A stretch of DNA of 64,000 nt from Lumbricus terrestris (taxonomy: Eukaryota; Annelida; Clitellata; Crassiclitellata; Lumbricidae), in contig OX457040.1 of NCBI GenBank assembly GCA_949752735.1, forward strand, positions 4,865,870-4,929,869, in the 5' to 3' direction. The notes beneath the pieces were generated by a model. That model was not told the DNA's origin. It was given only the letters and a program-made list of their open reading frames with translations, and did no database searches. Position numbers and translations under genes: made by a program. Below, one piece after another: positions 5,808 through 63,170 of this stretch (position 1 is the stretch's first letter; each line of letters begins with the position of its first letter).

Positions 5808-5850
5808 ATGAAAAATATAAAAAACGATGTGAATACCGTTTTAAAGGTGT
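5808..5850 (+). promoter_or_regulatory. TATA + TTTTAAAGGTGT motif
   Basis: TATAAAAAAC is followed by CGTTTTAAAGGTGTTT, with 32 bp from the first T of TATA to GG. It lies just downstream of a GTCTGGAGTC-type stretch. It is a member of the dispersed core-promoter-like family described in the findings. Confidence 0.5.
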
Positions 5851-5914
5851 TTGGCAAGAATGCTTTAATTGCACCTTACATTGGAATTCTTGGAGTTGCA
5901 ATCATTCATTAATT

Positions 5915-6425
5915 CATTTCACGAATTACATAGCGTTTGATTATATAGCGCTCCTTCAAGAGACCCATTCAGAGTCGATCCCAGTCCAATCTCGGTGATA
6001 GAAATGAGTTTTAAGGATCGCATAAAACACTGACGAGTCAACCCCATTGGTAACAAGCGCATCTCCAACGGGAGACTATTCCATGCAGATGGACCTACGA
6101 CTGAGAAAGCACGACGCTGACAGGTTGAGGATCTAACACAAGGGTCCAACAGATCCCCGTTAGATACAAAGCGAAAAGCTCTGAGAGCTAAGACAACAGA
6201 TACCGGAAAGCAGAACTCACGTCATTAGACCGGAGCACAGTTGAGGAGACAACGCCAAATAAGTGCGAAATTCTGTACTATAGGTGCGCTGTGAAACAGG
6301 GAACCAGCGTAGTACATGTATGCCATCCATGTAAGCTTCAACAGACGTAGATTGATGGTTTCGCCCAATAAGCCGGTCTGCAGAGCGATGAACACGGTCT
6401 AGGAGGGCTGTAATTACTAGAGACA
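5915..6425 (-). mobile_element. L2/CR1-like LINE 3' end
   Basis: The minus strand encodes VSQRTYSTEFRTYLALS, then after a frameshift DPCVRSSTCQRRAFSVVGPS and AWNSLPLEMRLLP. It ends near DWTGIDSE and the tail GCGCTATATAATC. This is the RT connection region plus the C-terminus. The most upstream recognisable part (about 6420) reads VHRSADRLIG, again typical of the family. At least two frame breaks and stops make it a pseudogene. ATTCATTAATTC repeats follow the 3' end. Confidence 0.85.
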
Positions 6426-6567
6426 ACTGATCATAACCGTTATTGTCCAATATTCGAGTAGTATCCTCCCAAATATTGCATTTCATATACCAGTATTTTG
6501 TCATGAACCACCTTTTTAATTGCCCATATATCACATGCATATTAGCTGTGCTAAACACACGCGTTCC

Positions 6568-6696
6568 TAACTCCGCCACTGGTCGCACTCTGCCAGTGCC
6601 AGTGCCAGTCCCAAGCCTGGATAAAGAAGGATGGCGTCGCTATTGGTCTTTGTTACCACACAGTGATGTTAAACTGCAACTACTACAGTGCTACCG
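6568..6696 (+). repeat. A/R box, complete copy
   Basis: A well preserved copy of a dispersed module of about 110 bp. In order it reads AACTCCGCCACTGG, GCCAGTGCCAGTCCCAAG, CCTGGATAAAGAAGGA, GGCGTCGCTATTGGTCTTTG and CCACACAGTGATGTTAAACT. Other near-complete copies lie at 56392, 57591 and 61606. The function is unknown. It often lies within about 100-250 bp of a TATA/GGTGT motif. Confidence 0.75.
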
Positions 6697-7229
6697 ATCT
6701 TAACATGCTTAATTTAGTCTTGGAACTAATTTGTTTTGTCTTCCATATCTTATTTAGACTTCCTATGCTATCCATCGTCTCTTGTTTCTTGTTAAGTTTC
6801 GAACTCCTCTCAATGCAAATATAAGTGTTTATATTATATAATATCTTTATCGTTATTATCTAAAGATATCTAAAGACTAATTCGTTGAACTCATAATATT
6901 ATCATAATTATCTATTTAATTTATGATGCTGTATTCATCGCGGTGGAATAGATTTACTCTAAAATTTAATTAGATATTTTGATTGCCAAAGAAATCCTGA
7001 GACACCGATCGAAGCGAAGTGATCGCATTTATATTAACTAGAAGATGAGAGAAGGTTTACGACATCATCCGCCGAAGCCGTCCCATAACGTTACTGAACA
7101 ATCACTTTGGACACCTTAATATTTGAATACAATTGGGTTAGAAATAAATTCTGTAGCGTTGTTTCAACAATATCACCTCACCAAAAGTGAAACTGACTGC
7201 AAAAAATCTGTCAGACGCTCGATAGATTT

Positions 7230-7830
7230 GGAAGAGAAGAATGGCTTCGCACTAGTAGAAATCTCTTACTATTGACACTAGTGTCACAATACTATCGAGA
7301 AATGTGCCAATCAACACCTTGCGTTTCGCCGATGAAATAGAATTGGTTGCCGAGGAACTGGATCATCTACAAAGTGCAGAGCAGAAATAAAACGCTCAAA
7401 ATCAATGCGGAAATTAAAAGGCAATGACTACCAGGCAATAACATGAGAGTTTGGAGCTGAATCTGTCATGGAGTCGCCGAAGCAAGTCACATAGTTTGCG
7501 CATCTATGAGGATTATTAACAGCGGATGACCAATGCACGTAGGTTAAAAAACGTAGAATGAGACTGGTATTAGCAACGTTTGGAAGACTTAACAAGATGT
7601 GGAAATCAAACAGCATATCGATAAAACCAAGGCAAAGCTGTACAAAGCCTTTGTAATCCAAAGCCGTTGTATGGATCAGAATGTTTGTGTTTGCATAATT
7701 AGGATGAACGTAGACTGCTGGTAGCGGAGAATGAGCTAAGAAGCATACATGGTAAATCCAGAAGAGATAGGATGCGCAACGAGATGACCTCCGAGGATCT
7801 GAGACAATGAAATGGACCATTTTATTTATG
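7230..7830 (+). pseudogene. Degenerate RT of a different LINE
   Basis: Plus-strand fragments read VPINTLRFADEIELVAEELD (RT catalytic box FADD changed to FADE). About 250 bp later comes RMRLVLATFGRLNKMWKSNS, followed by ISIKPRQSCTKPL and a degenerate WIRMF. This order (FADD box, then the 'GRLNKIW..ISIKTKxxLYKAL' type segment) is typical of RTE/craniata-like non-LTR elements. It is distinct from the L2-like family in this window. Multiple frameshifts are present. It ends close to a TATA/GGTGT motif at 7825. Confidence 0.75.
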
Positions 7831-7860
7831 AAGTCGTCTTAAACGTTTTAAGGGTGTCTA
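7825..7860 (+). promoter_or_regulatory. TATA-like + TTTTAAGGGTGTCTA motif
   Basis: TTTATGAAG lies 30 bp before GG in CGTTTTAAGGGTGTCTAG. The core is good and the TATA box weak. Confidence 0.45.
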
Positions 7861-8162
7861 GTAATAAAGGTCGCTGTGTCGTCTGTGATATGAAACGGTG
7901 GCGTTAAAGTCATAGGCGGAGACCTGGTCCGAACTTTGGGGGGGACGGACGAGCGGCCGAATGACGATCGCCGAGGCACAATGCGCCTCGCAGGGGAGGG
8001 TTTGTGCAGAAAAAAAGGACCCAAAACTTCGAAAAAGTTTGATTTTCAGCACCACAATGGTAGCATTTCAGGTAGTCATATTGACAAATTTCCTCGTAAT
8101 TTTAGTGCTTATAGTCTTTGTTTAAGACTTCAAAAGTGTTCCCGCCAATGTCGAAAAGCTTT

Positions 8163-9179: not shown

Positions 9180-9500
9180 TAGCTACAAAGGCTGTTGACG
9201 TCTTTAAAGATTTTTAACTGTGCATTCCACTTTTTTCTCCTCACATTTTTTAAGTAGTAAGATTGGTATATCATTCGTTATACACGCAATCAGCGTATGC
9301 TCAGTTGTTTCAGGCAATTGGCATTTAGAACACAGGTCTGTTGTGCTTTTACCTAACACTTGCAGCCAAGTGTTATTAAGAACTTGCCACAATCCTAAGT
9401 TGGGGAATTTGAACTTCTCTTTTCCTGATGGAGTCCATAAATTTTATATAAGTTGTGACGTTGGGTGTTGGCAAGGTTTTTATAATAACCGGTAATATGT
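9180..9500 (-). pseudogene. Broken RT C-terminus with Cys/His motif
   Basis: Minus-strand frame reads LWQVLNNTWLQVLGKSTTDL, then CSKCQLPETTEHTLIAC. The C-x2-C-x8-H-x4-C arrangement resembles the small Cys/His motif at the C-terminus of some non-LTR RTs. There is no RT palm upstream in frame. It is inside the hAT element at 7911-9777. This is a fragment only. Confidence 0.6.
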
Positions 9501-10019
9501 TAAAAGAGGTATCTTATCCACACAGTATTATGTTCGCAAACTATTCAACGTTGGACTAAATAACTATTGGTTAGAGCCGGATTGCCCGGGAATTCATATC
9601 ATTAGAAATATGAACTTCATCTGCAAAAGTTTTCTTTCCCTAAAACTCTACTGACGTGTTTGTGTAAATGCCCTAACGCTTAAACATTGGGGGGGGGACA
9701 AATGCATGGGCCGTCCCCCCCAACGCCTCCATTGGGGGGACCGTCCCCCCCTGTCCCCCCCTAGGTCTCCGCCAGTGGTTAAAGTGCAGCAAACCAACGA
9801 AGAACGTGCAAACCTACGATAACCTTGAGCGAATGATCTGCATTCAAGATAAATAACTGATACACACTTAATTGTTTTTTTTTATTATAATCAACTGCGA
9901 TTGTGGACTTAAGTTATCGCTTAACTTTTGAAATAATAAACTGATTATCGACTCAATTTGAAATCCACGCCTTTGTAATCGACAAGTGAGAGAATTCTAA
10001 AAAATAACCTATGGTTGGG

Positions 10020-13702: not shown

Positions 13703-13759
13703 AGTAACAATCAAAGGCGTATTTTACACTTCATAATATACATTACGTTTCATATTACA

Positions 13760-13798
13760 CACCTTTAAAAATTTATATTACTGCGCTACAAATAAGGT
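13760..13798 (-). promoter_or_regulatory. GGTGT motif with degenerate TATA
   Basis: The minus strand reads TTTTTAAAGGTGTG with TATTTGTAGC about 33 bp upstream. Confidence 0.35.
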
Positions 13799-14635: not shown

Positions 14636-15261
14636 AAAGTAGTATTCCCTTGAATTCAAATTCTTAGTTTTGTTCGCGTTATTCTTTCTTCGCCACATTT
14701 CATGCGACGTTTCAGCCGCCACTCATCACCGGGACACCGAGCATGTTTTATTGATGATCAATAGATAAACATAAAAATTATTTATTTATATCCTCGATAT
14801 GTGTGAACTTGTGAGTGATTGTGCTTGCATGCATTGATAGATAAGGCGCTATTTCGATTGCCTTCAATGCACAATCTTGTTTTCTGGAGCAAATGCTATG
14901 GAAACAATGTCAACCGTTTAAAAGAATTCCGTTGAATAGTTTTCATTGAATAGATTGTCTATATGATGGTGTGTGAGTGCAATGCTCGAAGCGATAAACC
15001 GTCACTACTCACTGCAGCTCTCTTCTTTTAAACCGATTCGAATCTTCATTTGACAATGAAGTCAACACCAAACTTTAAATATTTATGTTTAATACTATTT
15101 TCATTTTTATTCAAGAAAGGTTGAATGGTAGTTAATAAAGTCAAAATTACGCTAAACGAGGAAAGTGTATTGTTTAGGATTTAATCATTTAACTTTGGGA
15201 ACAGCAGCGTAGGATTAATTCAAGTATAATTATTTATTATATAAATAACATTTTCATTAGA

Positions 15262-15300
15262 CACCTTTGAAACAATTAGAATCCGGGCAATAAACAAAGA
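15262..15300 (-). promoter_or_regulatory. Degenerate GGTGT motif
   Basis: The minus strand reads TTTCAAAGGTGTCTAA, with TTTATTGCC about 31 bp upstream. Confidence 0.35.
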
Positions 15301-17888: not shown

Positions 17889-17924
17889 AGGCTTTCTTTT
17901 TTCGAATGTGATTTAACGTATACA

Positions 17925-17960
17925 TATAATAAAAAATAGACCCTGCTTTAAAGGTGTCTA
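17925..17960 (+). promoter_or_regulatory. TATA + TTTAAAGGTGTC motif
   Basis: TATAATAAAA begins exactly 30 bp before the second G of GCTTTAAAGGTGTCTAC. It lies directly downstream of C box copy 1. Confidence 0.7.
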
Positions 17961-17996
17961 CGTCGTCCAAACAATTATTTGCATGTTACTTGGATG

Positions 17997-20400: not shown

Positions 20401-20554
20401 AATGAATTCTTGAAATTACGGCAATTTACACACCTCTAAAACGTTTTTTATTAGTATTCAAATTAATTCAATTTTCTATTTTCCCAAATATACCACACAA
20501 AAATTATGGCAATAAAAAAAGGAATTAAGTAAATTTGTGGGCATCAATTGGAGA

Positions 20555-21707: not shown

Positions 21708-22320
21708 TTAAAAAAAGTGTGTGTTAGTTAAGTCTTGACCAACTCATACTTTGTAACACAATGAACATTCAATCAATTTGATTTGTTGCTAAATTCTGTA
21801 ATTCCTGAGACTGCACTAATTGTTGGAACCGAAGCCGAAAATTTATTAAAATTTATGTCGGCAACAAATTTGTTTATCCATCACTATTAATAAATTTCAA
21901 AGGCGTCTAATAATTAAACGTACTTCAGTGACGTCCTTTGATAGCCTTTATGACTTTTACTGTCATTCCACGTCATCTATTATTCTATTTTGAATAGCTG
22001 GTCAAGACTTCAATTCGCTCGTATTCTTTTGCAGCCCCAATTGAGTCTGGATCGGCTGTTATGTACATTTGATGTCTTGATTCGGCTATTGCTGATGGAG
22101 TCTGAAGATTCAATTCGCATTCCTTTTTTTCTAAGTCTGGTTTGTTGTTTGATTTGCCTCGCCCTCCTTCTATTTCAAGGCTTGGGATTGGCATTGCCAA
22201 AGTAGATGCATTGGCTGTCAAATATGTTTGCAGTGCTTGGCGACATCTAGCCGCTTTCAGATCCGTTGACTATGACACCCTCAGTTATTTTTCTATTAAC
22301 AAAGGTAGTTGACAAGGCTA

Positions 22321-22355
22321 TTTATAGAAAAAGCAAATTAGTTTTAAAGGTGTAG
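22321..22355 (+). promoter_or_regulatory. TATA + TTTTAAAGGTGT motif
   Basis: TTTATAGAAA begins 30 bp before the second G of TTAGTTTTAAAGGTGTAG. It is preceded within about 80 bp by GGCGACATCTAGCCG and ATCCGTTGACTATGACACCC, which resemble upstream-module words. Confidence 0.65.
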
Positions 22356-22402
22356 GGACTAATTGAGTCCTGAATTTCATCTGCTTGGCCTTTGATGTTA
22401 TC

Positions 22403-23565: not shown

Positions 23566-23888
23566 GAGTTACGAACTGCGGCTTAGTTAAGGTTCAATTG
23601 GATTTCAAGAGGATTTTATCGATCGATCAACGGTCCACAGGGTGGCTCAATAAAAAAAGTCCCACCGGATAAACTGCAATATTTTCGCAACCCTTGAACT
23701 TTTTCTGCGAAAATTTCCCAATAATTATTTGAGGTTTAGTTAACGCTAATTGGATTTCAAGGGATTGTAGCATACCGGGAAATTTTAACAATGCTGTTGA
23801 GCGGGTTGCTTGTAACATATAGAGTATTCTAATTAAGGGTGTATAAGTTGAACTAAGCTTAGTAATAAAGGATCCTGTCAGCGTGTTT

Positions 23889-24500: not shown

Positions 24501-25281
24501 ACCAAGAACCTTAACTGCATCAACTCTACTGTAACAGTACTGACATTTTGAGGTTTAAGTGCCGATTATTTACAGTTACGCAATGTTGAAAAAGCAAAGT
24601 GGATAAACAAAATAATTTGCAGCACTGTAGCTAAGAAAAGAAGTAATAAAAAAATCGCGACTTAACTGCTCAGGAAGATAATTTCGAAATCTTTCGACGA
24701 TTACGTGAACGAATGACGTTGTTACCAAATGTTAATCCGAAAAACTTGTATTAAACAAGTGGAAAAATAAAGTCAAAGTCGTGAAGTTCATTGACAAAAC
24801 ATCAAATTAAATTTTTTGCTGATGTTACGGACGATTGCCAAAAAAATCATTGTACATATAAAAATTGCAACTGTGCAATTATCTACATCGTCATAAAAGA
24901 TTCGACACTGAAAATTTAATGGGCTTGGCTAAAGCCTTAGTTTTTCATATCAGATTTTTTTTAATCTGTTCGAAATAATTGAGATATCAGTCGTTCACAA
25001 ATGGGTTGTTTATTGAGTCCATAATTGTTCTGATCAGCTTTTGCAGGTCATGCAATTATTTAATTACCATTGATGCATGGTTTAATGACGTCCTATGCAT
25101 GCTTCACTTTGAATGTTGATGTCTTTAGATTTTTATTTGTATTTCGCTTGTCTGTCTTCTTCGTTTCGTTTGTTGCTAATTTTTACGACATTGCGTCGCT
25201 ACCAGGCTGGATAACACATCTCCTCATTTTTGTAACGCGACAATTAACAAGAAAATCAAATTTACAACGAACAATTATTCA

Positions 25282-25320
25282 TATATAGCATTAATTAAAT
25301 TTACTTTAAAGGTGTCTAAA
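25282..25320 (+). promoter_or_regulatory. TATA + CTTTAAAGGTGTCTAA motif
   Basis: A canonical TATATAGC lies 31 bp before GG in ACTTTAAAGGTGTCTAAAG. This is one of the best matches in the window. Confidence 0.7.
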
Positions 25321-25849
25321 GCTGAATTTCCCTGCGGTGCAATTGGATTTCATAGGACGTGTATGTCAAACATTCGTCATCTAATGAATAATAATTATTG
25401 CTTAATACTTTCTATTACTTGACTTATCGCTTCGTGTTCCGTGTGTCTTCTGCATTCAAAAGTAGTAGAGTGAGTATCCGTTTATAAGATGCAAGAAATC
25501 AAAGGTAAGAAGTTTATGATGTAGATTTGTGAGTTCAAAGATTAGCGATTTGATTTAACGAATAGCAACTGACGTCTTTCTGTCGTCTTCGTAATATCTA
25601 TATTCGTCACTCATTGTGGAGAACGCTATGGTTCTCATCAAGCGATTTTTTACAGCGTTTAGCAACAGATATTTCTCTGCTATTACAGCTGTCTTAATTT
25701 GCATAAATTGTAGCTAATAGCAGAACAGCAACAGAACCGAACAAAATGCACAAAATTTCCGGTCATTGTAGACGACTTTTATTTTCATAACATGTTGCAA
25801 TATAGGTTTACTGTTAGAATAGAATATGTTTGACAAACCCTTGATTTGA

Positions 25850-26811: not shown

Positions 26812-27308
26812 GGTCGTTGAAGATAACCTTGATTTTAAGCTCTAAAAGTGCATTCACCCGACGGGGAAACAGAAAAGAAAATGATTTTTTGCCACATTAT
26901 TGTTACGTTATAAACTAGCACTATATCAAACATTTCTCAGAATTTCTTTCTCAATTTAAGAATATATTCTTTTGCTTACAACACCAGAATGCGCAAATAC
27001 GATGATTTCGAACGCTAAGAGCTCTATACATCTATGACGTTTCGATTTCACATTGCAATCTTAAGATATCGACCTATAATTGTAATGTATAACTAAAAGA
27101 AATAACTAATCAATGATCTTACAGCGCAACGTGCAATTTCATCTGATAGTTTATCTTCTACAATGGCATCTATCGGTTGTCAAGGTCGTTGATGATGTTG
27201 ATCTGAAATTCCTCTATTACGGTTCGTTTTCACTCTTTGCGTGAATTATAGCGTTTGCGTTAATCCCATCACCGAACTTTAGCAAATCATGTCGTCCGAT
27301 TATGATAA

Positions 27309-27344
27309 TTATATAGAAATGAGACCGATAATAAAGGGTGTGCA
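27309..27344 (+). promoter_or_regulatory. TATA + AATAAAGGGTGT motif
   Basis: TTATATAGAAATG lies 30 bp before GGG in GATAATAAAGGGTGTGCAA. Confidence 0.65.
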
Positions 27345-27408
27345 ATCTGAGCGGTTATTAGGTTTTAATAATAAATGAAAATCAAGTCATAAATGATTTT
27401 CCATTATA

Positions 27409-28208: not shown

Positions 28209-28247
28209 TTAGACACCTTTAACACGGTTTTGCACAGATTATATATA
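28209..28247 (-). promoter_or_regulatory. TATA + TTAAAGGTGTCTAA motif
   Basis: On the minus strand TATATAATCTG lies 30 bp before GG in CGTGTTAAAGGTGTCTAAAT. Just upstream is a perfect palindrome GAAATTCCGGAATTTC (28252-28267). It is divergently arranged to the motif at 28734. Confidence 0.7.
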
Positions 28248-28733
28248 CATAGAAATTCCGGAATTTCTGTTGTTCCATGATCGTCTTCACTTTCAAAATA
28301 TTGTGCAGCAAGATTTTACTAAGTGTAAGACAATCGTCACTTATCGAAAAGCATTCTCGTTGATGTGATTGAACTTTTTAATCATATTCTATTCCCAGTT
28401 GCCACTCATTCAGCTGTTTATAAGAAGACCAAGTTAACATCAACCGAACTGATGACCACATTATAGCGTCTAATTCTGAGGAGGAGGGCGACGGGATTCA
28501 GTTGAGTGGACTAAAGGTCGCATCGTCCTGCTAGCTTTATAAAGGTAGAGTCAACCTTCCATTCACCAAATGGCGTTGGTGAGCAAATTGTTGAACCTTG
28601 CATGGCTGCCGGACATTTAAATAAAACTCCTCTAATAATATTATTATAAGTTGCGATAATTGAGATTACTGTCTTATGTTATAACACGCCACGGATGGAA
28701 ATGAGAGTTAGCATCCTTGATAGCTGATCTTTA

Positions 28734-28772
28734 TATATAATGATGATGAAAGCTTTTAAAAGGTGTGCAAGA
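28734..28772 (+). promoter_or_regulatory. TATA + TTTTAAAAGGTGTG motif
   Basis: TATATAATGATG lies exactly 30 bp before GG in AGCTTTTAAAAGGTGTGCAA. An A/R-like GAGGAGGAGGGCGACGGGAT lies about 260 bp upstream (28478). Confidence 0.7.
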
Positions 28773-29860: not shown

Positions 29861-29965
29861 GCTCAAATCTAAAACCGTATTCCACCGTATTTCATTTTCT
29901 GCTGTTTGATAGACAACGGCAATGGGGCGGAGTCGAACTAATTAGCAATGCCAGATGCTCGTAAG

Positions 29966-30005
29966 TATAAATAGCGAAAATGAAATCGTTTTAAAGGTGT
30001 CTTAT
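29966..30005 (+). promoter_or_regulatory. TATAAATAGC + TTTTAAAGGTGTC motif
   Basis: TATAAATAGCG lies 32 bp before GG in TCGTTTTAAAGGTGTCTTA. It is downstream of an A/R box. This is a canonical member. Confidence 0.7.
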
Positions 30006-30856: not shown

Positions 30857-31050
30857 CCAAAAACTATTAATAACTAATAATAATTCACTATTAATGCTAG
30901 CTTTTGCCGACGTCAACAGCATAATGTTGCATCAGGAATTAAGACAAACACAAACTCTGCCACAGACCGTGCAATTCTAAGAATGCAGTGCTAGTGCCAA
31001 TGTCAATGGACTTTTGATTTCTCGATGGTTCGTAATTCATACGTGAAATT

Positions 31051-31085
31051 ACACACCTTTAATTATAGAATTTGATTATTATAAC
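31051..31085 (-). promoter_or_regulatory. TATA + ATTAAAGGTGTG motif
   Basis: The minus strand TTATAATAATC lies about 29 bp before GG in CTATAATTAAAGGTGTGTAA. Confidence 0.55.
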
Positions 31086-31264
31086 TATCGCAATCGGCGT
31101 AATACTATTTAATAATAATGGCTGTTTCTGCCGAGCTCACAGGCTATAAATTCCAAGCATCGTCTGGTTTATTACTGGAATCAGTAAAAAAAACATTCGA
31201 AATACCGAAATATTCGAAATATCCCAAGTTTAAATAACAATCATGTTCCTAATCGCATAACATA

Positions 31265-31655: not shown

Positions 31656-32217
31656 AATGATCTTACTCCCGCAGTGTCAATTTCAATCCCGATCTTACGA
31701 TGAGTGGAAATATCGGGGTTTTTTCATGTACACTTGCGAAGCGATAATATCATTTACTCACCAAAATCGTTTTATCCATGTGACCCCAGCGCCGCTCAAC
31801 AATATATTCTACTCTCCTCATTACCAACGCAAATTCACAGTTGACCGCGTCCTATGGCTGCTTTTGCTTTTGCTATTAGAATAATTTTTTATTTTTTACG
31901 AACTTTTCATCTTTTCTCTTCTAAATCTCAGCTGGGATTCCTTTTCTACGTTTGTCGATATCTTGCAATTGCAAGTTCTATTGACAATAATATTGGAGGA
32001 AGGCAACGGGAAACCACCTCCCTACTTATCCCGAGGAATATGTTAAATGACGACAAAATTGCACAAAACAGATACGCTTGGCGTCATTGGACATATTCAG
32101 GAACCTGTCTGACGGCAGAGAACTAAAGAAGATGAAGATTGACAATTGAACGGCCAATGTAGGGCCCACCTAGTAAATAGCGTTAACTAAAATATTTATA
32201 CCAAGTTGCTAATTTGT

Positions 32218-32232
32218 TTTAGAGGTGTCTTA
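32218..32232 (+). promoter_or_regulatory. TTTTAGAGGTGTCTTA motif
   Basis: TTTATACCAAG lies about 31 bp upstream of GG. It is a moderate member of the family. Confidence 0.5.
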
Positions 32233-34930: not shown

Positions 34931-34964
34931 TAAAAAATTATGAATGCTCAAAACGAGGCTACCT

Positions 34965-36264: not shown

Positions 36265-36299
36265 TTGCCAAACGGTTGTGGACCACGTAAGTTTTAAAA

Positions 36300-39565: not shown

Positions 39566-39656
39566 TGAAACGCTATCTCTGACGTTGAGCAACAACTATA
39601 TTCTTTCCGATAGAGAATTCCGAAAGAATATTCGTTGCATTTGCTGACTGAAAGCA

Positions 39657-39694
39657 TATATAGCAAAGAAGAAACTTTATTAGAAGGTGTCCTA
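39657..39694 (+). promoter_or_regulatory. TATATAGC + ATTAGAAGGTGTCC motif
   Basis: TATATAGCAAAG lies 31 bp before GG in TTATTAGAAGGTGTCCTAAG. It is downstream of an A/R variant. Confidence 0.65.
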
Positions 39695-40289: not shown

Positions 40290-40332
40290 GCATATTAATA
40301 TATTCGATTCAAAACATTTTACAGGTGTTTAG
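40290..40332 (+). promoter_or_regulatory. TATA + TTTTACAGGTGTTT motif
   Basis: AATATATTCGATTC lies about 30 bp before GG in ACATTTTACAGGTGTTTAG. Confidence 0.55.
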
Positions 40333-41235: not shown

Positions 41236-41280
41236 GACAAGTTATTATAGGCGACTTGAGCTATTATTTAAGGTGTTTAA
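41236..41280 (+). promoter_or_regulatory. TATA-like + ATTTAAGGTGTTTAA motif
   Basis: TTATAGGCGACTTG lies about 29 bp before GG. Confidence 0.5.
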
Positions 41281-45395: not shown

Positions 45396-45670
45396 GTCGG
45401 ATATATACTAGTCAGTAGATTGAGCCATAGTTATATTGTTGCTAAAATTATTTTATTGCCGTTATAATGTTATTTAGTTGAGTAGCAAAAATCCAAGTAA
45501 AAAATCCAAGGCCCTGTGAAAAAGGAAAATATCCAAAGATACGATTGAAAAGCCAAGTTCTCGTGAAAAAGCCAAGCAGCAGAAACACTGACTATTATAA
45601 TTTTTATTATACGTTTCACCTATAGAATTTGGAAAAAGACACTCAATAAAAATGTTTTCGGTCACTTCTT

Positions 45671-45706
45671 TATATAAATTCGGTGCAAATGTTTTACAGG
45701 TGTACT
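45671..45706 (+). promoter_or_regulatory. TATATAAA + TTTTACAGGTGT motif
   Basis: TATATAAATTCGG lies exactly 30 bp before GG in AATGTTTTACAGGTGTACTA. A reverse A/R box begins 15 bp after it. Confidence 0.68.
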
Positions 45707-45717
45707 AGAAAACACTC

Positions 45718-47330: not shown

Positions 47331-47336
47331 AAATTA

Positions 47337-47405
47337 TTTATAAGCTCAAAACAAACATTTTAAAGGTGTTGAAATTGATATCATTCGGCAACTTTATTAG
47401 ACCAC
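47337..47405 (+). promoter_or_regulatory. TTTATAAGC + TTTTAAAGGTGT motif with duplicated downstream
   Basis: TTTATAAGCTC lies exactly 30 bp before GG in CATTTTAAAGGTGTTGAA. The following GAAATTGATATCATTCGGCA, ACTTTATTAGACCAC matches 49300-49340, so this and the 49.29-kb copy are duplicates. Confidence 0.7.
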
Positions 47406-47910: not shown

Positions 47911-48163
47911 GAGTGTGGCAGTGGCTGTTTGTCTACATGCTGTTTAACGACGCTGCTTCGTAAGTATCAACTAATTATATCCTTGAGCCTTGAGACTCGC
48001 CATGCCACAGGTCTGTTGTGTTGGAGTTAGTAGTGGCGGCGCTTTTGCCGTTCGAAATGAGTTTAAAGAGAGCATTTATAGCAACGCAGCGTAGATTTTC
48101 ACAGAGGTTTCCACCGATAGTGAAGCCGCCGAACATTGACCACGGAAGTCCATTGACGAAATA

Positions 48164-48200
48164 TTATATTCAGTGTTACCAAATATTTTAAGGTGTCTAA
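48164..48200 (+). promoter_or_regulatory. TATATTC + ATTTTAAGGTGTCTAAA motif
   Basis: TATATTCAGTG lies 29 bp before GG. Confidence 0.6.
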
Positions 48201-49215: not shown

Positions 49216-49284
49216 CAGGCCGGGGGTGGGGAGGGGACGGGAACGGGAACGGGACGGGGAAGGGGGAGGGGAAAGGCTACTTAA

Positions 49285-49340
49285 AACACACATTTTAAAG
49301 GTGTTGAAATTGATATTCTTCGGCAACTTAATTAGACCAC
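49285..49340 (+). repeat. Duplicate of the 47.35-kb motif and downstream
   Basis: ACACATTTTAAAGGTGTTGA and AATTGATATTCTTCGGCAAC, TTAATTAGACCACG. The TATA box is not preserved in this copy. Confidence 0.8.
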
Positions 49341-50352: not shown

Positions 50353-50426
50353 TCGGCGGAGTTGTGCGACTATTATAACTGACGTCACTGATAACTTCAT
50401 ATGATCATTTCCGTTGCTCTCAGAAG

Positions 50427-50464
50427 TATTTATAGCAATAATTAAACTAATTAAAAGGTGCCAA
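50427..50464 (+). promoter_or_regulatory. TATTTATAGC + AATTAAAAGGTG motif
   Basis: TATTTATAGCAAT lies 32 bp before GG in CTAATTAAAAGGTGCCAAA. It faces an inverted motif at 50524 (ACAGGTGTCGAAA on the minus strand), 68 bp away. Confidence 0.62.
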
Positions 50465-50593
50465 AATATCTTTGCACTGATTGTAATGTTATTCAGCCGT
50501 CACTGAACGTAGGCTAAATTTCGACACCTGTAAAAAGCTTTTGATTTGAGGTCTAAGTTTTCGAGTTTCGTCATAAAACTTCAAAAGAAGAAA

Positions 50594-50689: not shown

Positions 50690-51565
50690 GATGTAGTTCG
50701 TAACTTCGTTTCTTCTTAGTGTAGAATTGTTCAAATAGGGCGTACATGCACAAGCAAAAGGGAGGCATATTTTTTCTGGGTTCATTTAAACTGAATTTCT
50801 AATCTTAACTACAATTTTACTTGTGGCATAAATGGAAACAGAATTCTCTTCTCGAGTCCACAATCACGACAGCTCGATATAAGACTTACTAAACAAACAT
50901 CTTTAGCATAATATGAAAGATGGAAAACGATGAACTCTGTTGCTTACGTAATACGTGTGTCACGTTCAATACTTGTTACCATCTTTCGTCTTTTTAACAC
51001 ACACGTGTTCCATTGTCAATGTAAACGCTGAATTTGATGCTATCGATAACATATGGATGCGTCTCCATTTACTGGGTTCCACGTGTGTGCTTGGGTCCAC
51101 CATCCGAAACAGACTTTAATTTTATATTTATTGCTCGCGCTATCGCTTGATTAATAATATTAATAGTCTTTCATTTAATATTATTACAAGAGCAAAAAGC
51201 CATTTAATCCTTCATTGACTCAATTGACTGGTACTATGTTTATAAAGTTCTTGATGAAATAAGACTCAACATAATATTTTTAGCAAAATATTTTGCCGCA
51301 AAAGGCCATTCACAACAATGGAAAAAACTATTTTTTCGAAAGTCTTCACGACATTTGGCTGTTTCCGATTAAAGATGCAGTTGACGCTTACATTCTTAAA
51401 GAACCATTGAACACCTAGAAAATAAATACAAGCCAGAGTATAAATATTCGACTGTTTCCTATGTTTCATTGGGACATTTCATTGGTAACCACATTTGGTT
51501 GAGGCGCTTGTAAGTCGCGCAAAGTAAAATAATCTCCTGCTGCAGAATTAATTTTCCTCCAATCC
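50690..51565. other. Unassigned AT-rich DNA
   Basis: No gene, motif copy or repeat was recognised. It is one of the few stretches of over 800 bp free of the TATA/GGTGT motif and its modules. Confidence 0.4.
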
Positions 51566-52092: not shown

Positions 52093-52699
52093 CGCACAAA
52101 TACATACCCACAGTCACACTGAAAATGTGTATGAATATCGACGTTAGCAGACTGTCACGTGACAAGATGTTATTGAAAATGAACCAAATAACAATTATGT
52201 CAGAACTGTAGCCTAGGCCTACTTACCAATTTGAACAGTTCTAACTTTTAATTAAATATTGAAAAACTTTGTGAGTCTATAATATAACCACATAATCGAT
52301 CGCAATGGGAATATCCTGATTATGCACCTTTATAACGCAGCGTTATGTATATGTAAAAACCGCTACCAATATTAGCTTGTACTAAGCCAAACCAATTTGT
52401 ACCGACTGCAACAGCCTCTGTATAATCGGTCTCTAAAAGATGTCGTTGGACTCTGGATTCCTCCTCATCCTCAGTGAATTACTACAGACTCTACATTTTC
52501 ATAGATTGAATTCTTCTGATTATTAATGTGATTAACATCTTCCTGCTTTCATCCCCATACTTGGACTCTGACTGCCCGAGTAGTGTCTTATTTATAATTA
52601 TTATGTGTGCTACGGAGAAGATAATCGGTGATAGTGAGCAAGCTTTCTTTTTTATAATACCGTAGAACCCGGAGGAGCATTGAGAATTGACGTCAACAA

Positions 52700-52740
52700 G
52701 TTAATATTGACAAGAAATTACTTTTAAAAAGGTGTCTAAA
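52700..52740 (+). promoter_or_regulatory. TTTTAAAAAGGTGTCTAAA motif
   Basis: TTAATATTGAC lies about 32 bp before GG. The TATA box is weak. An inverted motif with TATACATA lies at 52321-52352 (minus strand). Confidence 0.5.
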
Positions 52741-53774
52741 TCCGATTCGTCATTTAGTTGTTTAGTTGCTGTTTCATGACATTATGTTGTTCCCTTAATT
52801 ATGCATACGCCTGGAGTAAAAATTACTTATATATCGCCATCCTCATATCTCCATACTTGGGACTGACACTGTCTTATGACGTTTCATGTGCACGCCTCAG
52901 ATTAAAATTTTCACATTTTGGCGTGACTTTAGGCGCGCTTCCAATTTATTATTTAGCACGATTGAGGTGAGGTGGAGTGTGACACACACCAGATCTATAA
53001 TAATTCTACTGTGCACTTTTAGCCGAAAACGTGGAAGCATCTTGCTTTTTTCAACTTTATACAAGGCTTAACGTCGTCGTTTGACATCAAAGGCCGTTGA
53101 CGACAATTTACATATACAGTGCAGTAGAAAATGAATGACTATTGTCCAATTTACACCATTTAACTTAGTCTTAACGTTATGTTCCAATGTCATTATTGTT
53201 CATTACTTTACAGTAAATGTCTTTCAATCAGTATAATATCAATCAACTACACAAGTTACGCTGAATCTTTTGCTTTTGTAAATTCATTGTTAGGCCTACT
53301 CTGCCGATTTTGTCATATGCCATAGATAACATAACATTTTCTTGATGACTTCTCTTAAAACACGTTCATTTTCATTTCTAATTTAACTGAAGGTGTGAAT
53401 CCATCTTGGTTGTTTATGTATAACATAGTGAATATAACACACGGGTGTGCAATTTCAGGTGTTTTGAACGAAAGTTTTTTTATAAGTTTCTTTGGCATTA
53501 AAGTGAAATGGTAAGTTTTTCTTATACTTGTTGATTTTAGTGAATTTATTATAAAAAATAACGACGGGTGAGTGTGCCTTGAACACGTTAATACCTAACT
53601 CACATAACAACATTGTCATGTTAAAAAGAAGTGGTGAGTAGGCCATGTAGCTGAAGCTGGAATCAATAATTATGTAGATTCAGATTTTAATAAGTCCAAC
53701 TTGTCTTTTTGCTGTTGCTGTAAGACAAGTTGATAATAACAACCTTGTGTTATTTGCCATTCTGAATATATTAT

Positions 53775-54050: not shown

Positions 54051-54428
54051 AAAAATGAAACTACTAAAAGGCCTACTATTGCTTCGGCTACCACTACTGC
54101 CACAAATACTGCTGCTGCAATTGCTGCTGCTCTTCATAGTACTGACTCCACGGCTGTTGACAATAGCTATTCTTCTATCTGTTCTCTCTTAATGAGCAGC
54201 AAGTAGATCTATCGAAATACCTATAACAGACAACACCGTACAAAAAATTGACATTCCATGACATGATATGTCGCTAAGCTGTTGAAATGAATCGACCATT
54301 AGACGAACTTTTTGAAGAAAATATTAACGAGGCAGATTTATAAATCTAAACTAAAGTAGTTTATTTTTTAGCTTGCACTGCAAATATTGATCATGGCGCT
54401 GCACAGCATCGGCAAAGGCAATGAAATT

Positions 54429-54462
54429 AAACACCTTTAAAATAGTTTAGAATTATGGTATA
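54429..54462 (-). promoter_or_regulatory. TATACC + ATTTTAAAGGTGTTTAA motif
   Basis: The minus strand TATACCATAATTC lies 29 bp before GG. Confidence 0.6.
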
Positions 54463-54689
54463 GATAATTTTGTAGGCGTCATGATCCATATTTGTATCAT
54501 TTCGAGCACTGTCACCGCCACCAAATCGAATCGTGACTTAGATCTGGCTCCTATTGGTTCTGCACTTGTACATCAAGGCACAATCTGAATCTTGCTGTGC
54601 GCATCACAAAACGGTTCTTTTTGGCCGTGTTGGGGTTGGCGGCTTTTAGAGTAGCCGCTTCGATGGGACGCTATGCAAACTACATGAAT

Positions 54690-55225: not shown

Positions 55226-55877
55226 TACCCTTTGTGATGATTATGAAACGACTAAAGTCATTCATTCTATGGATGCCAGAGTTGAAGTCAAAATCTGCTA
55301 ATGTGATCTGACAAAATTCGCCATGCCACAGCTATTTACAAATTAAATAAGAGTATTATAAAAGGTGTGTTTTTTCTAAGCGGAATATCACTCTTGAATG
55401 ATATCTGCGTCCTTGGATTCGTCATAATATCGCAAAACAATTTCTGTCGTAAGCCTTTGTTGTTATACTCTGTCGTTAAACTCTGAATAAGTCATTTATT
55501 AAAGTTGTCTAATTCGAACTGAGTTTATTTACTGACATTGCCGTTGCTCTACACGATTAAGCGATTTAATGTGACTGCTGAATCAAAAGTTATAATGAAG
55601 CCTTATATCATAGATTTTCATTTAGAGCTGTAAAAATCCCAACGGCAATGACCTCTGTCGTCAAACTCTGGATCCTCCTATGTAACGTTGCATTATATAA
55701 CTCCGAAAAGTCCACTAAGAAATTGCGCATAGCTTGAATCAAGTAAGTAAATGACAAAGCATATCCTTGCACAATAGAGTCTTCTCTCAAACGAAACTCG
55801 GTAGTTCTGTAATATGCAAACTAAATGTTCCTATCATTCCGCAACTCCGCCTCAGGATATCTTATGATAGCCTGAGC

Positions 55878-55925: not shown

Positions 55926-56115
55926 TGCATCCAACTCCGGTTTTAAAAAAATCTACGCAACTGAAACAACGTGACCGTTGCCTAGTATGCAGACCTGCAC
56001 GGGAGGGACTAAGTACTAAGTAAGCATCTTTAAGTAAGCATCTTTATCGTCCTTTCTTACCATAGCGCTGCTAAAGGAACAAAGAGAAGAATCAAAAATA
56101 TTGTATGACGCAGAA

Positions 56116-56156
56116 TATATATAGCGAAAGGAAGCACCACATTAAAGGTATATTAG
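56116..56156 (+). promoter_or_regulatory. TATATATAGC + CATTAAAGGTAT motif
   Basis: TATATAGCGAAAGG lies 31 bp before GG. GGTAT replaces GGTGT, as in the 60.7-kb copy. Confidence 0.62.
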
Positions 56157-56612: not shown

Positions 56613-56775
56613 GTCAGTGATTTGGGGGCGATGGGTGAGAGTAAACTATCACAATGCAAACCGCGCTCGACCTCTCAGTATAAGTTCAAATTCTTGTAAT
56701 TCATTCAGTGCCAATGAATAAACTGAATTTCCTATGACGAGGTTGTCTGATTGAGTTGCTGTATAACGCCATCTT

Positions 56776-56812
56776 ATACACCTTTAAAACGCGATATTCT
56801 ACTGGTATATAA
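56776..56812 (-). promoter_or_regulatory. TATATACC + GTTTTAAAGGTGT motif
   Basis: The minus strand TATATACCAGTAG lies 30 bp before GG in CGCGTTTTAAAGGTGTATAA. Confidence 0.68.
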
Positions 56813-57049
56813 ATTATTGATAAAGCACGGTAACCACTGAAACGGTAATTTCCGATTACATCGTATCAATTATTGTTTAACTGTGAACGACTCTGGCAGC
56901 AGAAAGATGCGCCAACCTTTAGAAACGGATATAGTGACGTGAAAGAAAGAAAACACAAATTAATACTAAAAACATCAACGGCAATGGTCTACATAAATGT
57001 AGGACGCTCTTAAACTCTGCATAATCAATGTTCAAAAACGTTTCCTTTT

Positions 57050-57690: not shown

Positions 57691-57949
57691 TAACAAGAGA
57701 GAAACCTTCATTCTACTAGCATATAATCATGCTTCAGTCTGGCACAAGCAAGTGTGAGATATTATAGAGTGGGGAAACCTGTTATTTTTTAAATCCAAGT
57801 ATTAAGAAACATCTTGTAGCAATAAAACCCTATTCGATTATAGTACTTTGGTTATTTACTGGCAATTTGATATAGCGCTCATTCGTATCACTGCCACTAA
57901 GGTAAAATAAAAATATTGCGAGCTTTTATTATACACCTGTAAGACGTGG

Positions 57950-58036
57950 TCGCTGCACGCTATTTAAACAAAAATGTTACAATCGACTGCGACTTCAAGC
58001 CATTCATACTATGAGAACTGTTACAGTAACAGTATC
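57950..58036 (-). promoter_or_regulatory. TAAATAGC + TTACAGGTGT motif with upstream palindrome
   Basis: The minus strand TTTAAATAGCG lies about 31-33 bp before GG in GTCTTACAGGTGTATAA. The word AACTGTTACAGTAACAGTAT (58017-58036) lies about 65 bp from the motif. The same word occurs at the same distance from the motif at 30240. Confidence 0.55.
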
Positions 58037-58745: not shown

Positions 58746-58749
58746 ATAA

Positions 58750-58783
58750 GACACCTTTAAATCGACTTCAGTCTACTGTTAAA
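58750..58783 (-). promoter_or_regulatory. TTTAACA + ATTTAAAGGTGTC motif
   Basis: The minus strand TTTAACAGTAG lies exactly 30 bp before GG in GTCGATTTAAAGGTGTCTTA. It lies downstream of C box copy 7 on the same strand. Confidence 0.55.
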
Positions 58784-58829
58784 GTCAGCCTCATCAAGGC
58801 AAATTATTAACTTCGAAAGAAGAAAGTTT

Positions 58830-59895: not shown

Positions 59896-59901
59896 CGAAT
59901 T

Positions 59902-59937
59902 AGACACCTTTAATCGATCACTTCATTTTATTATATT
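59902..59937 (-). promoter_or_regulatory. TATAATA + GATTAAAGGTGTC motif
   Basis: The minus strand TATAATAAAATG lies 29 bp before GG. Confidence 0.6.
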
Positions 59938-60190
59938 TACTTACGTTCAGCTCCCACTCAAGCAACGAATTGAGTATAGGATATCTACTCTAGTCGGGTG
60001 CTGCATTCTAGAACTTGATCCTGCCTACCTTTGTGAGCTTTGTAGCCCTACAGTCCCCTACTCTTAGTTCTCGCCACTTCCGCTCCCTTCGTTCGACTGA
60101 ACAAAGTTTTCTCTCAGTCCCTATTGCTCGTTCTTCCACTATATGCAGAACCGTGCTTTCTCGGTGGCAGGACCCTCAACCTGGAATGGT
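59935..60190 (+). mobile_element. L2-like LINE C-terminal fragment
   Basis: The plus strand reads LPLKQRIEYRISTL, then DPAYLCELCSPTVPYS, and after a shift LRSTEQSFLSVPIARSSTIC, followed by the RAFSVAGPSTWNG-type region in a third frame (60140-60185). No tail was found; it runs into short duplications GCAACAGGTCTCTCGAC at 60203 and 60243. Confidence 0.78.
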
Positions 60191-60668
60191 GCAACAGTCG
60201 GTGCAACAGGTCTCTCGACACAAGAATCCCTTTTGTCGAAGCAACAGGTCTCTCGACGCAACGAAACGTTGGTCTTCAAGAGTATCTTGGAACCGCAACG
60301 ACATACAATGACGCTGTGAATCTTCGAAAGCAAGAGCCGTTCCAGAAGGACTGTCCAACCTAAGGAACCTTGAACGTTCAGCAAACCGTGAGGCATAACC
60401 GGAATTGTTGGGGAAGGGGGAAACCTGGGTCAAGAATCGGTCGAGGTTCGGGGTAGTTAAATAGCATCGCATTTGATTATATTATCAACTATCGACTAAA
60501 CCGTGTTATTCACGGGAACTTATCATTTATTTTGATGGTTAAATCATAACTGCTTTAATTTACACTGACTTCAGAATTGGTTTATAAACCCCCTTCCTAA
60601 CCGGCGGGGTGTAACTGATCATACTAAAAAAATAGTGACATAAATTGTTATACATCGTAATTATGATT

Positions 60669-60706
60669 TATATATAGCTGATGTGACATCATTTTAAAGG
60701 TATGCA
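60669..60706 (+). promoter_or_regulatory. TATATATAGC + TTTTAAAGGTAT motif
   Basis: TATATAGCTGATG lies exactly 30 bp before GG in TCATTTTAAAGGTATGCAA. Confidence 0.66.
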
Positions 60707-61347
60707 ATTGGGCGTCTTGAAATAAGTTACTTATTGTTGGACCATTGATTCTTCCGGTATTTGATTCGTAATCAACCTCGAGGCCTCAGATGGGCACACT
60801 TAGGCCAATATATTTATGTTATTATAATCAATAGCAATAAATATCAATGACACTGGACTTATTAAGAATGCTAAAAAGAAATAAATATGATTAGCTGATT
60901 TTTATAGTAGGAAATTGGTTCCGAAGCACACTTTAGGTCGTAGGTCGTTCGATCTTACTGGTGCGTCCTCTGCCAGGTTGCCAAGCCTACTGTCGTCTCT
61001 CGATTGATGTATTCCTCTGCCGTCTGGTGGGTATCACAGCGGGAAGGACCGGTGTCATGCGAAATACTATCCGGGCAACAGAAACTATCCGGCCACGCCC
61101 ACTTCGTTGTCGGATACAATCTCGCACGACATACGTGCGAAATAATATCCGTTGACAAATACTATCCGGGTTGCTTTTCGAGGTTTATTTGGAATAATTC
61201 ACTTCATGAAGCACATAACTCGATATGCAAAGAGTTACTGTAATGCATGCATGCAAATGATATTGTGATCTAGTGACATGGCGAGTGTGCAAGTAAATTT
61301 GGAACAAAACTTGATTCTTATAAACGAAGCGGTGTTAAGTCAGTAGG

Positions 61348-61434
61348 GATGTATCCGATTTGACCAGGGTCTATGACAACAGAGGCCGTTACCCTGGACA
61401 GAAATTTGCTCGGCGTATTACAGCACTGAAGAGC
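61348..61434 (+). repeat. C box copy 8
   Basis: Near-consensus copy with GATGTATCCGATTTGACC and the intact stem CCAGGGT/ACCCTGG. A GGGTGTCTAAC motif follows about 115 bp later (61523-61560). Confidence 0.93.
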
Positions 61435-61522
61435 AATATTACACAACCATAATCTTAAGTCATTAGGGACTTGTTTTTTTTATTTTTAGAATGGAAAATT
61501 CGTTTTGGAAATTGGATCATTT

Positions 61523-61560
61523 ATTAATAAACTTCATAGAAGAAAATAGGGTGTCTAACG
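61523..61560 (+). promoter_or_regulatory. AATAGGGTGTCTAAC motif
   Basis: TATTAATAAAC lies 30 bp before GGG. The TATA box is weak. Confidence 0.5.
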
Positions 61561-61605
61561 ATAACAATTTTATATTTTTAAAATGTTTTTCAAATACATC
61601 TGTCT

Positions 61606-61705
61606 AACTCCGTCACTGGTTGCACTCTGCAAATGCCAGTCCCGTGCCTCAATAAAGAAGGAGGGCGTCGCAAGTGAGCTTCGTTATCACACAGTGACGC
61701 TAAAC
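61606..61705 (+). repeat. A/R box, complete copy
   Basis: AACTCCGTCACTGGTTGCAC, TCTGCAAATGCCAGTCCCGT, GCCTCAATAAAGAAGGAGGG, CGTCGCAAGTGAGCTTCGTT and ATCACACAGTGACGCTAAAC. Confidence 0.87.
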
Positions 61706-61842
61706 TGCAAATATTACCATATATAATATTACATCTCTGCAGATTCTGTGAATAGAAACAGCTGCAACTAACTAATCACCTTAATCATCCATCCTCTCGA
61801 TCGGTTCTTGTCCATCAACCCTTAACTCTGGCAGTTATTTAA

Positions 61843-63091
61843 CCCTCATAGGGTCACGATTTTTCCCAACCGATTTTGGTCACCGGGGGGTAAAAAAATA
61901 CCCCCACTGTGATTCGCATGATTCCTATGATAAACTCCGAGTTTTAAGTATAAAACTAAAAGAAGTTATTTATAGAAGGTTCGCGGAATGCACTGGAACC
62001 AAAGTAACATATGAAGCACTGCAGGAAAATCAAAATGGCGGACAAAATGGCGGCCAGAATCCTAAATGGCTATAAGTGAAGTCATGTATGCAATGGAAAC
62101 ATAATTTCAGAGTCTAAATCAACATTATCGAGGTCAAGGAATGCAATGGAACCAATGTCACATATCTGGCACTGCCCGAAAATCAAAATGGCGGACAAAA
62201 TGGCGGACAGAATATTAAAATGGCTATTAGTGAAGTCATATGTGCAATGGAAATATGATCGCAGGGTCTAAATCAGCATTTTCGAGGTCAAGGAATGCGA
62301 TGGAACCAATTTCACTTATATTGCGCTGCAAGGAAACCACAATTGGGATAAAATGGCGGCCAGATTCTTGAATTGGCTATCAGTAAAGTTCTGTATCTAA
62401 TGAAAATATGATTTAATAATTTCTTGGTCAAATAATTTCATGAAAGCCACGTTCTATATGTAGCATTGAGCCTATTGTGCAATGAAATTATCATATTATC
62501 TAGTCGCAATTTTTAGTAGTATGTGATTTCACTGCAGTTTAACTATTGCTGTCATTATATATGTGCCATATTCATACTTCAATGTTTCATAACTTGATCT
62601 ATCGATAGTTTCAATGTTTCATGACTTGACAGATAAAAGGTAAACAGTCTATTCAGGTCTTGTTGCTGTCAATGCAATTGCGTTCAAGTGTCCATGGCAA
62701 GATCGCACTTCGACAGCATTAGGGCTTGATGCTATACTTGCTAACTTCGCGTCATTTTCTGTATACAATTTCATTTATTCATCCTAATTTTCTGAAACCA
62801 AAACGATTGATAAGGAGACATTGTAAGTAACAGCAAGACACTCGTGTGTAAAGCATGCATAATGCTATGTTTAAAAATTCCTGAGTAAAATAGTTAGGAC
62901 TTGGTACATTTTCGTACTTTATAGCTGATTTGGGAGCATGAATAACTAATGAAACTATATGCATTCTGTGCATAAAACATATTTAGGAAAGTCATGGTAG
63001 CGATTTCTTCAGCTATTTTCAGGGAATAAAATTTCCGTGAAAAACCGAGATGGGGTATTTTTTTACCCCCCCCCCGGTGACCCTATAAGGG
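61843..63091. mobile_element. piggyBac-like MITE 3 (TTAA target)
   Basis: TTAA lies at 61839-61842 and 63092-63095. The inverted ends are CCCTCATAGGGTCAC and CCCTTATAGGGTCACCGG (reverse strand). Subterminal GGGGTA/TACCCC palindromes (GGGGTAAAAAAATACCCCC at 61887; GGGGTATTTTTTTACCCC at 63052) take the place of the GGGGTCCG palindromes of the other two elements. The interior has three units of about 150 bp. No transposase. Confidence 0.93.
61975..62400 (+). repeat. Three direct units of about 150 bp inside piggyBac-like MITE 3
   Basis: AATGCAATGGAACCAA, ATCAAAATGGCGGACAAAAT and GGCTATTAGTGAAGTCATAT recur at about 61988, 62138 and 62296, with increasing divergence. Confidence 0.88.
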
Positions 63092-63134
63092 TTAAGTTTA
63101 ACAACATTACAAAAGAGGATAAGGACTACATTTC

Positions 63135-63170
63135 CACACCCTTAATATGTAATTATTAAATTTTATATTT
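63135..63170 (-). promoter_or_regulatory. TATAAAA + TATTAAGGGTGTGG motif
   Basis: The minus strand ATATAAAATTTAATA lies about 30 bp before GGG. Confidence 0.55.

Follow-up and report, generated by a model that had tools for sequence, protein, structure and literature searches.

The question raised by this locus in the annelid Lumbricus terrestris is what a TATA box, followed at an almost constant distance by one and the same short core, is doing in so many places on both strands of a single stretch of DNA. The stretch (hereafter the window) comprises 64,000 nucleotides, bases 4,865,870-4,929,869 of the 69.6-Mb contig C6, in an assembly of 1.056 Gb and 331 contigs. A TATA box at a fixed distance from a start-site-like element is the geometry of a core promoter, and metazoan TATA boxes typically lie ~30 bp from the start site. 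The genome of L. terrestris seems to carry this promoter-like cassette of ~40 bases tens of thousands of times, and we put the probability at roughly 0.55 that the cassettes are autonomous TATA-plus-initiator mini-promoters, each with its own short non-coding RNA.

There is abundant evidence that the cassettes are not chance matches in AT-rich DNA. A two-part position weight matrix, consisting of a 12-bp TATA block, a variable gap and a 16-bp core, was trained iteratively on the window, with the tandem arrays at 8100-8950 and 10700-11500 excluded and a threshold of ~1 chance match per window. It yields 53 sites in the window (TATA block, 12-13 bp, TTTTAAAGGTGTNTAA), compared with ~0.1-0.7 in simulated windows; the TATA-core gap is 9-14 in 49 of them, and the four sites with odd gaps (4, 4, 22 and 23) are doubtful. 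At a score of at least 21 bits, the window contains 51 sites; the mean over 40 windows simulated with a Markov-3 model is 0.125, with no more than 2 in any of them, and reversal of the window leaves no site at all. The flanks (200 kb in all) had no part in the training and are therefore the better test: in the 264-kb region formed by the window and 100 kb on each side, the same model finds 146 sites at this threshold (51 in the window and 95 in the flanks), and the reversed region again has none. With simulations near zero and no sites in reversed sequence, an origin by chance is rejected.

These results confirm the cassettes described in an earlier note on this stretch, which had reported ~45-50 of them between 5808 and 63170 at a density of ~1 per 1.2 kb outside large insertions. 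The model places 47 sites in that interval, recovers all 16 examples that the note had called clean, and gives one site per 1.2 kb for the window, declining to one per 1.8 kb over the 264-kb region. The fixed spacing of ~30 bp is borne out by 14 of the 22 TATAWA boxes located 10-80 bp upstream of AGGTGT, which are 27-29 bp away from it. The cluster itself is real but not confined to the window, since it continues into the 200 kb of both flanks.

The anatomy of the cassette was derived from 127 sites, which represent the 146 sites of the 264-kb region minus near-duplicates. The TATA-core gap is 12 in 50 sites, 13 in another 50, and 11-14 in 114, so that the initial T of the TATA block precedes the first G of GGTGT by 30-31 bp. 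Two positions of the TATA block interchange A and T freely, and TBP sites tolerate A/T exchange. The core consensus is TTTTAAAGGTGT followed by NTAA; the latter is conserved in the 127 sites, although the earlier note had seen nothing conserved after GGTGT, and the spacer, which it had likewise considered unconserved, shows a weak consensus (ATCGGTTGACANCG) in the best copies. Further upstream, positions -51..-48 (core frame) are weakly enriched in A. This A-rich stretch is replicated in 40 fresh sites (20 of the 92 full-consensus copies described below and 20 of the 100 in-phase matches listed on C1), where 79 of 160 letters are A (49%, compared with 31.5%; p = 3e-6). Expectation-maximization searches up- and downstream of the cassettes yielded no motif that could be confirmed: in the first, which covered seven regions, 16..60 and 16..120 beat all six of their own null runs; in the second, all three regions beat three null runs, most strongly 22..100 (98.9 vs 82.9 for the best null) and the others by a few points. 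A T-box site is rejected, because the base after AGGTGTN is T or C and the T-box consensus expects A or G.

The cassette is strongly enriched in the genome. The exact core TTTTAAAGGTGT occurs 5,499 times, compared with 973 times when read backwards, and its 20 occurrences in the 264-kb region correspond to ~15 times the genome density. The in-phase pattern TATAN{14,17}WWTWARAGGTGTNYWA has 4,436 matches, in which overlapping TATATA is counted twice at some sites, compared with 11 backwards, and 24 matches fall into the 264-kb region. Scaling with the 146 model sites, under the assumption of equal degeneracy everywhere, gives a total of very roughly 27,000 cassettes from the strict pattern, or 33,000 from the exact core after subtraction of the backwards count, which is to be read as an order of magnitude only. 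At C1:1.62-4.11 Mb, the density is approximately one per 4 kb, as scaled from the 100 in-phase matches listed.

The distribution along the chromosomes is uneven. The full consensus (TATATAGC...TTTTAAAGGTGTSTAA) occurs 92 times, compared with 0 backwards; of the 89 copies on contigs of known length, 69 are no more than 7 Mb away from a contig end, compared with an expected share of 23%. The exact string TATTTATA... occurs 62 times (0 backwards), and among the 59 copies that could be placed, the distance to a contig end is at most 7 Mb for 29, at most 10 Mb for 44 and at most 19 Mb for all; a single copy falls into the middle third of its contig and no copy into the middle 20%. The motif is present on many contigs and on several of them towards both ends. 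Contigs C14 and C15 account for 8.8% of the genome but for 45 of the 92 TATATAGC copies and 36 of the 59 placed TATTTATA copies; some of those on C15 are local duplicates with identical spacers. On C6, 5-kb samples at 3.0, 4.5 and 8.0 Mb contain sites of more than 28 bits, and those at 5.2 and 30 Mb contain one site each (21.6 and 20.2 bits); samples at 1.0 Mb of C6 and 10 Mb of C2 contain no site of at least 19 bits. Judging from these seven samples, the cassette domain of C6 is therefore probably several Mb long.

What the copies have in common ends with the cassette. When 20 full-consensus copies from 13 contigs were compared with ~-400..+600 bp of their surroundings, sharing was limited to the ~40 bp of the cassette (TATATAGCATCGGTTGACANCGTTTTAAAGGTGTCTAA), with the exception of one pair (L065 and L066) that is related over ~230 bp around it; repeats at varying distances are common to a few further pairs. 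The information per 10-bp bin is 0.46-1.83 inside the cassette and 0.05-0.22 outside. Gene signals do not clearly stand out either: open reading frames, the splice-donor string GTAAGT and the poly(A) signal AATAAA are about as frequent in the kilobases downstream of 127 sites as in 127 randomly chosen kilobases (for AATAAA within 200 bases of the start, 34 vs 27). A coding gene family is rejected for this reason and from scans of open reading frames: among 10 of the listed frames, two match a reverse-transcriptase family below the cut-off and eight match nothing. Within the window, there are no Rfam matches at gathering scores, and a tRNA scan with the bacterial code found none. The cassette pattern has no match in prokaryote genomes, and a viral promoter family is rejected, because the looser pattern has a single match in each of 14 viral contigs and the tighter pattern has none. 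A literature search, largely of titles and the opening lines of abstracts, returned no description of the motif. The absence of both a shared sequence after the core and a gene signal suggests that every promoter would give rise to a distinct RNA, with selection acting on the fact that an RNA is made.

Evidence for selection comes from the history of the locus. Duplications of 0.3-2.7 kb have enlarged the 264-kb region, and the resulting paralogous blocks allow a test of retention: a cassette was picked in one copy only, its partner was read via the block alignment, and its decay was simulated at the divergence of the block. In 24 paralogous pairs, the partners score on average 22.6 bits, compared with 16.7 in the neutral simulation, and 20 of the 24 score higher (Wilcoxon p = 4e-4). 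Likewise, paralogues agree in 94.5% of the core letters and in 84.7% of those in the far flanks (over 35 rows, with reciprocal pairs counted).

Taken together, geometry, the restriction of sharing to ~40 bp, retention and the lack of gene signals support the mini-promoter reading already raised in the earlier note; its other part, which comprises transcription, the start site, the involvement of RNA polymerase II and a small guide (piRNA-like) RNA as product, is what we infer. Each cassette would be a minimal core promoter consisting of an A-rich stretch ~28 bp further upstream, the TATA box and the information-rich initiator TTTTAAAGGTGTNTAA, with transcription predicted to start at about AAAGG, 30 bp past the TATA box. 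Very roughly 27,000-33,000 such promoters would occupy both strands of large domains located mostly towards the chromosome ends, more sparsely outside this window, and each would give its own short non-coding RNA, different in sequence from locus to locus. This would be the logic of the type I genes for Piwi-interacting RNAs (piRNAs) of nematodes, with a TATA-initiator cassette in place of the Ruby/SNAPc motif. In its DNA geometry (TATA at about -30, fixed spacing), which would suit a start site 28-33 bp past the TATA box, the cassette resembles metazoan TATA-plus-initiator promoters of RNA polymerase II, whose usual initiator is short and of the YR type; by contrast, the initiator TTTTAAAGGTGTNTAA is far richer in information, and no gene signal follows it.

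Several observations weigh against this interpretation. In four of the 24 pairs, the score is lower than the mean of the simulation; some loci also contribute to more than one pair. Between paralogues, the identity of the TATA block (82.1%), the spacer (81.6%) and the interval +16..+49 (85.5%) does not clearly exceed the 84.7% of the far flanks, and the same is true for -49..-26 (81.4%); since the core stands above the flanks and +16..+49 does not, it is the core that is clearly kept and not the sequence of the RNA that would follow. The spacer variants of the best copies (67 distinct 14-base spacers among 84 strings) differ mostly by C/T and G/A exchanges, and this richness in transitions suggests common descent, beyond an independent origin of promoters. 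A T-rich, G-poor stretch at +24..+31 of the 127 sites was not replicated in the 40 fresh sites (p = 0.19 and 0.15), and a floating TTYARYRACRNY at +20..+60, with eight occurrences in the 127 sites and two in the fresh ones, was likewise not borne out. An out-of-phase control pattern has 1,268 matches in the genome, high at first sight, compared with 15 backwards; among the 100 control matches listed, all on C1, 87 represent by eye one unrelated satellite, and the remaining 13 (11 sites) are all located at C1:1.64-7.09 Mb, whereas the listed matches extend to 62.98 Mb. Finally, the promoter model does not predict the quasi-regular spacing of ~1.1 kb: neighboring cassettes are separated by a median of 1,153 bp, and 63% of the gaps are 500-1,700 bp long, compared with 37% under random placing; the median is much the same whatever the orientation of the two neighbors (1,118-1,304 bp over the four orientations). 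We take this regularity as a trace of the growth of the domain.

Two side observations concern the same comparisons. The upstream interval -110..-51 is the least conserved between paralogues (74.6%, compared with 84.7% in the far flanks). The C1 satellite, with its 87 of the 100 control matches listed at 2.03-62.98 Mb, has rows that are often 119 bp apart; part of its unit reads TATAAAAAGTCAACCATGGACACAGACTCGAGATCCAAGTTGTCACAATAAAAGGTGTCCAA, and it also bears AAAGGTGT with the TATA out of phase.

Among the alternatives, the cassette might be no promoter but the binding site of an architectural or meiotic protein. The meiotic pairing centers of Caenorhabditis elegans, which are recognized by zinc-finger proteins, are clusters of a short motif near chromosome ends, and the cassettes resemble them in being short, matched thousands of times, located towards chromosome ends, mixed in orientation and quite evenly spaced. 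They differ from pairing centers in their bipartite TATA geometry and in the presence of one motif on many contigs, on several towards both ends. Moreover, a TATA box with a second element 30 bp further on and a 50:50 wobble of one base between them would be odd for a single protein reading 38 bp, whereas such a wobble is natural for a preinitiation complex, and the A/T exchange at two TATA positions is TBP-like. We therefore consider a structural binding site unlikely.

Type-3 promoters of RNA polymerase III, as in U6-like small RNA genes, would place a TATA box at about -30, and the geometry of the cassette falls within the criterion of -25 to -30; the A-rich block at ~-57 would even occupy the position of the proximal sequence element. 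However, upstream of the cassette (~-55) there is no information-rich proximal element but only the weak A-rich stretch, and a fixed terminator is missing, because TTTTT occurs at +20..+39 in only 6 of 114 sites, as often as elsewhere. Type-3 promoters normally lack conserved first transcript bases, whereas the predicted start lies in a conserved core here; this explanation is improbable. A search of the genome for U6 itself returned 16 matches, including seven genes at 115.7-118.2 bits. Three of these seven best genes (C8:8.99, C10:52.99 and C10:53.27 Mb) lie in or near arm regions with full-consensus cassettes (C8 2.2-10.9 Mb and C10 53.5-53.8 Mb); the other four are located elsewhere.

The cassettes might also be the remains of one conserved terminus of an ancient family of transposons or solo long terminal repeats, an alternative that had been raised together with the promoter reading. 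Indeed, the best copies share the full 38-bp consensus including the spacer, and their transition-rich variation is what decayed copies of a single ancestor would show. However, the 20 of the 92 full-consensus copies that were compared share neither a second conserved terminus nor a body: outside the cassette, information does not exceed background between -350 and +350, an argument against a transposon. The TATA-core gap varies from 11 to 14 without loss of either part, sites are retained above neutral expectation, and exact copies are concentrated towards contig ends. With the failure of the second-terminus test, this reading is largely refuted, and we regard it as quite improbable. Least probable of all is a derivation from decayed and shuffled ancient tandem units of ~1.1-1.2 kb, with the cassette as their sole constrained part and some other function: it is in line with the quasi-regular spacing, the paralogous blocks and a tandem array at C13:6887759-6892662, in which five pattern matches are 1,214-1,217 bp apart, but it covers the growth of the domain and not why only ~40 bp are kept, has to accommodate the similar spacing in all four orientations, and is compatible with mini-promoters in any case.

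If the cassettes are mini-promoters, their closest counterparts are the nematode genes already mentioned, which occupy both strands. To our knowledge, only nematodes produce piRNAs from thousands of autonomous mini-genes; in other animals, piRNAs are processed from long cluster transcripts. The label "piRNA-like" is applied to the putative earthworm products because of their arrangement: thousands of dispersed units in Mb-scale domains on both strands, with no shared downstream sequence. The type I (21U) piRNA genes of C. elegans are described as tiny autonomous units with an upstream motif that acts as an independent promoter; they account for well over 15,000 piRNA sequences, most loci being located in two Mb-scale clusters on chromosome IV (PMC3597512, PMC6436959). 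The nematode motif has a GTTTC/Ruby core ~42 nt from the 21U site and is derived from a SNAPc site, and no TATA box is reported to have been found at the piRNA loci of P. sambesii (PMC6436959). The cassettes have a TATA box and an initiator instead; the position profiles of 121-127 sites show no GTTTC block at a fixed distance but only the A-rich stretch, the TATA box and the core. The absence of GTTTC and the presence of TATA imply that the cassette is not a member of the nematode type I family.

It is possible, and we suggest it tentatively, that L. terrestris has independently evolved a genome-scale system of one promoter per small RNA outside the nematodes, with tens of thousands of genes driven by a TATA-initiator of ~40 bp in Mb-scale domains of the outer arms, and with approximately half of the exact copies on C14 and C15. 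In that case, the same arrangement around an unrelated cassette would mean that this way of producing guide RNAs has evolved more than once, and the sites would provide a ready list of loci, at each of which the cassette pins the predicted start site down to a few bases. Even with another product, tens of thousands of selected stand-alone core promoters in arm domains would represent an unusual genome organization, and the cassettes would form a natural library for studying what makes a minimal TATA-initiator promoter.

Table 1. Sites of the two-part model in the window (positions relative to its first base), with score and the gap between TATA block and core.
Feature	Position	Strand	Score (bits)	Gap	Remark
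Cassette	1226..1266	+	23.1	13	
Cassette	1502..1541	-	24.6	12	
Cassette	2127..2167	+	26.8	13	
Core, off-phase TATA, doubtful	2980..3029	-		22	
Cassette	4068..4104	+	23.6	9	
Cassette	4593..4633	-	24.7	13	
Cassette	5815..5854	+	25.3	12	
Cassette	7107..7147	-	25.2	13	
Cassette	7824..7861	+	24.5	10	
Cassette	9476..9516	+	22.2	13	
Cassette	13755..13795	-	33.1	13	
Cassette	15257..15297	-	29.2	13	
Cassette	17920..17961	+	27.5	14	
Cassette	20426..20463	-	24.2	10	
Cassette	21872..21910	+	23.6	11	
Cassette	22318..22357	+	26.8	12	
Core, off-phase TATA, doubtful	23815..23846	+		4	
Cassette	25279..25319	+	34.8	13	
Core, off-phase TATA, doubtful	25646..25696	+		23	
Cassette	27307..27345	+	22.4	11	
Cassette	28209..28248	-	34.8	12	
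Cassette	28731..28770	+	31.2	12	
Cassette	29965..30004	+	34.9	12	
Cassette	31049..31088	-	30.5	12	
Cassette	32192..32232	+	34.3	13	
Cassette	33000..33041	-	27.1	14	
Cassette	34111..34151	-	21.1	13	
Cassette	34964..35001	-	29.9	10	
Cassette	36297..36336	+	26.4	12	
Cassette	36364..36403	-	36.0	12	
Cassette	39654..39694	+	28.7	13	
Cassette	40294..40332	+	27.3	11	
Cassette	41241..41280	+	28.3	12	
Cassette	45668..45707	+	26.5	12	
Cassette	47334..47373	+	31.7	12	
Cassette	48160..48200	+	25.6	13	
Core without in-phase TATA, doubtful	49277..49308	+		4	90.6% over 64 bp to the cassette at 47334
Cassette	50426..50465	+	27.8	12	
Cassette	50520..50560	-	23.9	13	
Cassette	51407..51447	-	25.1	13	
Cassette	52320..52360	-	22.0	13	
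Cassette	52700..52739	+	25.2	12	
Cassette	53428..53466	+	20.7	11	
Cassette	54427..54467	-	33.2	13	
Cassette	55332..55372	+	20.3	13	
Cassette	55472..55512	+	21.3	13	
Cassette	56115..56155	+	28.0	13	
Cassette	56774..56814	-	35.7	13	
Cassette	57929..57969	-	28.2	13	
Cassette	58747..58785	-	26.5	11	
Cassette	59900..59940	-	30.7	13	
Cassette	60668..60707	+	31.1	12	
Cassette	63132..63172	-	27.9	13	

The window also contains other repeats. Core-like TAAAAGAGGTGT or TAAAAAAGGTGT occurs in the units of two tandem arrays, at 8167-8900 (89-bp unit, 8 copies) and 10731-11510 (67/132-bp unit, 6-12 copies), accompanied by a TATA that is poor or somewhat out of phase; both arrays are possibly amplified degenerate cassettes. 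A clean array of a 68-bp unit at 37217-38344 (16.5 copies, 95% matches), which contains AAAAGGTATGTTTTT, resembles the array at 10731 by eye. Microsatellites of (TATC)n and (TG)n, at 41393-42083 and 39377-39482, are located near remnants of the reverse transcriptase of a long interspersed nuclear element (LINE) on the minus strand at ~44.0-45.4 kb.

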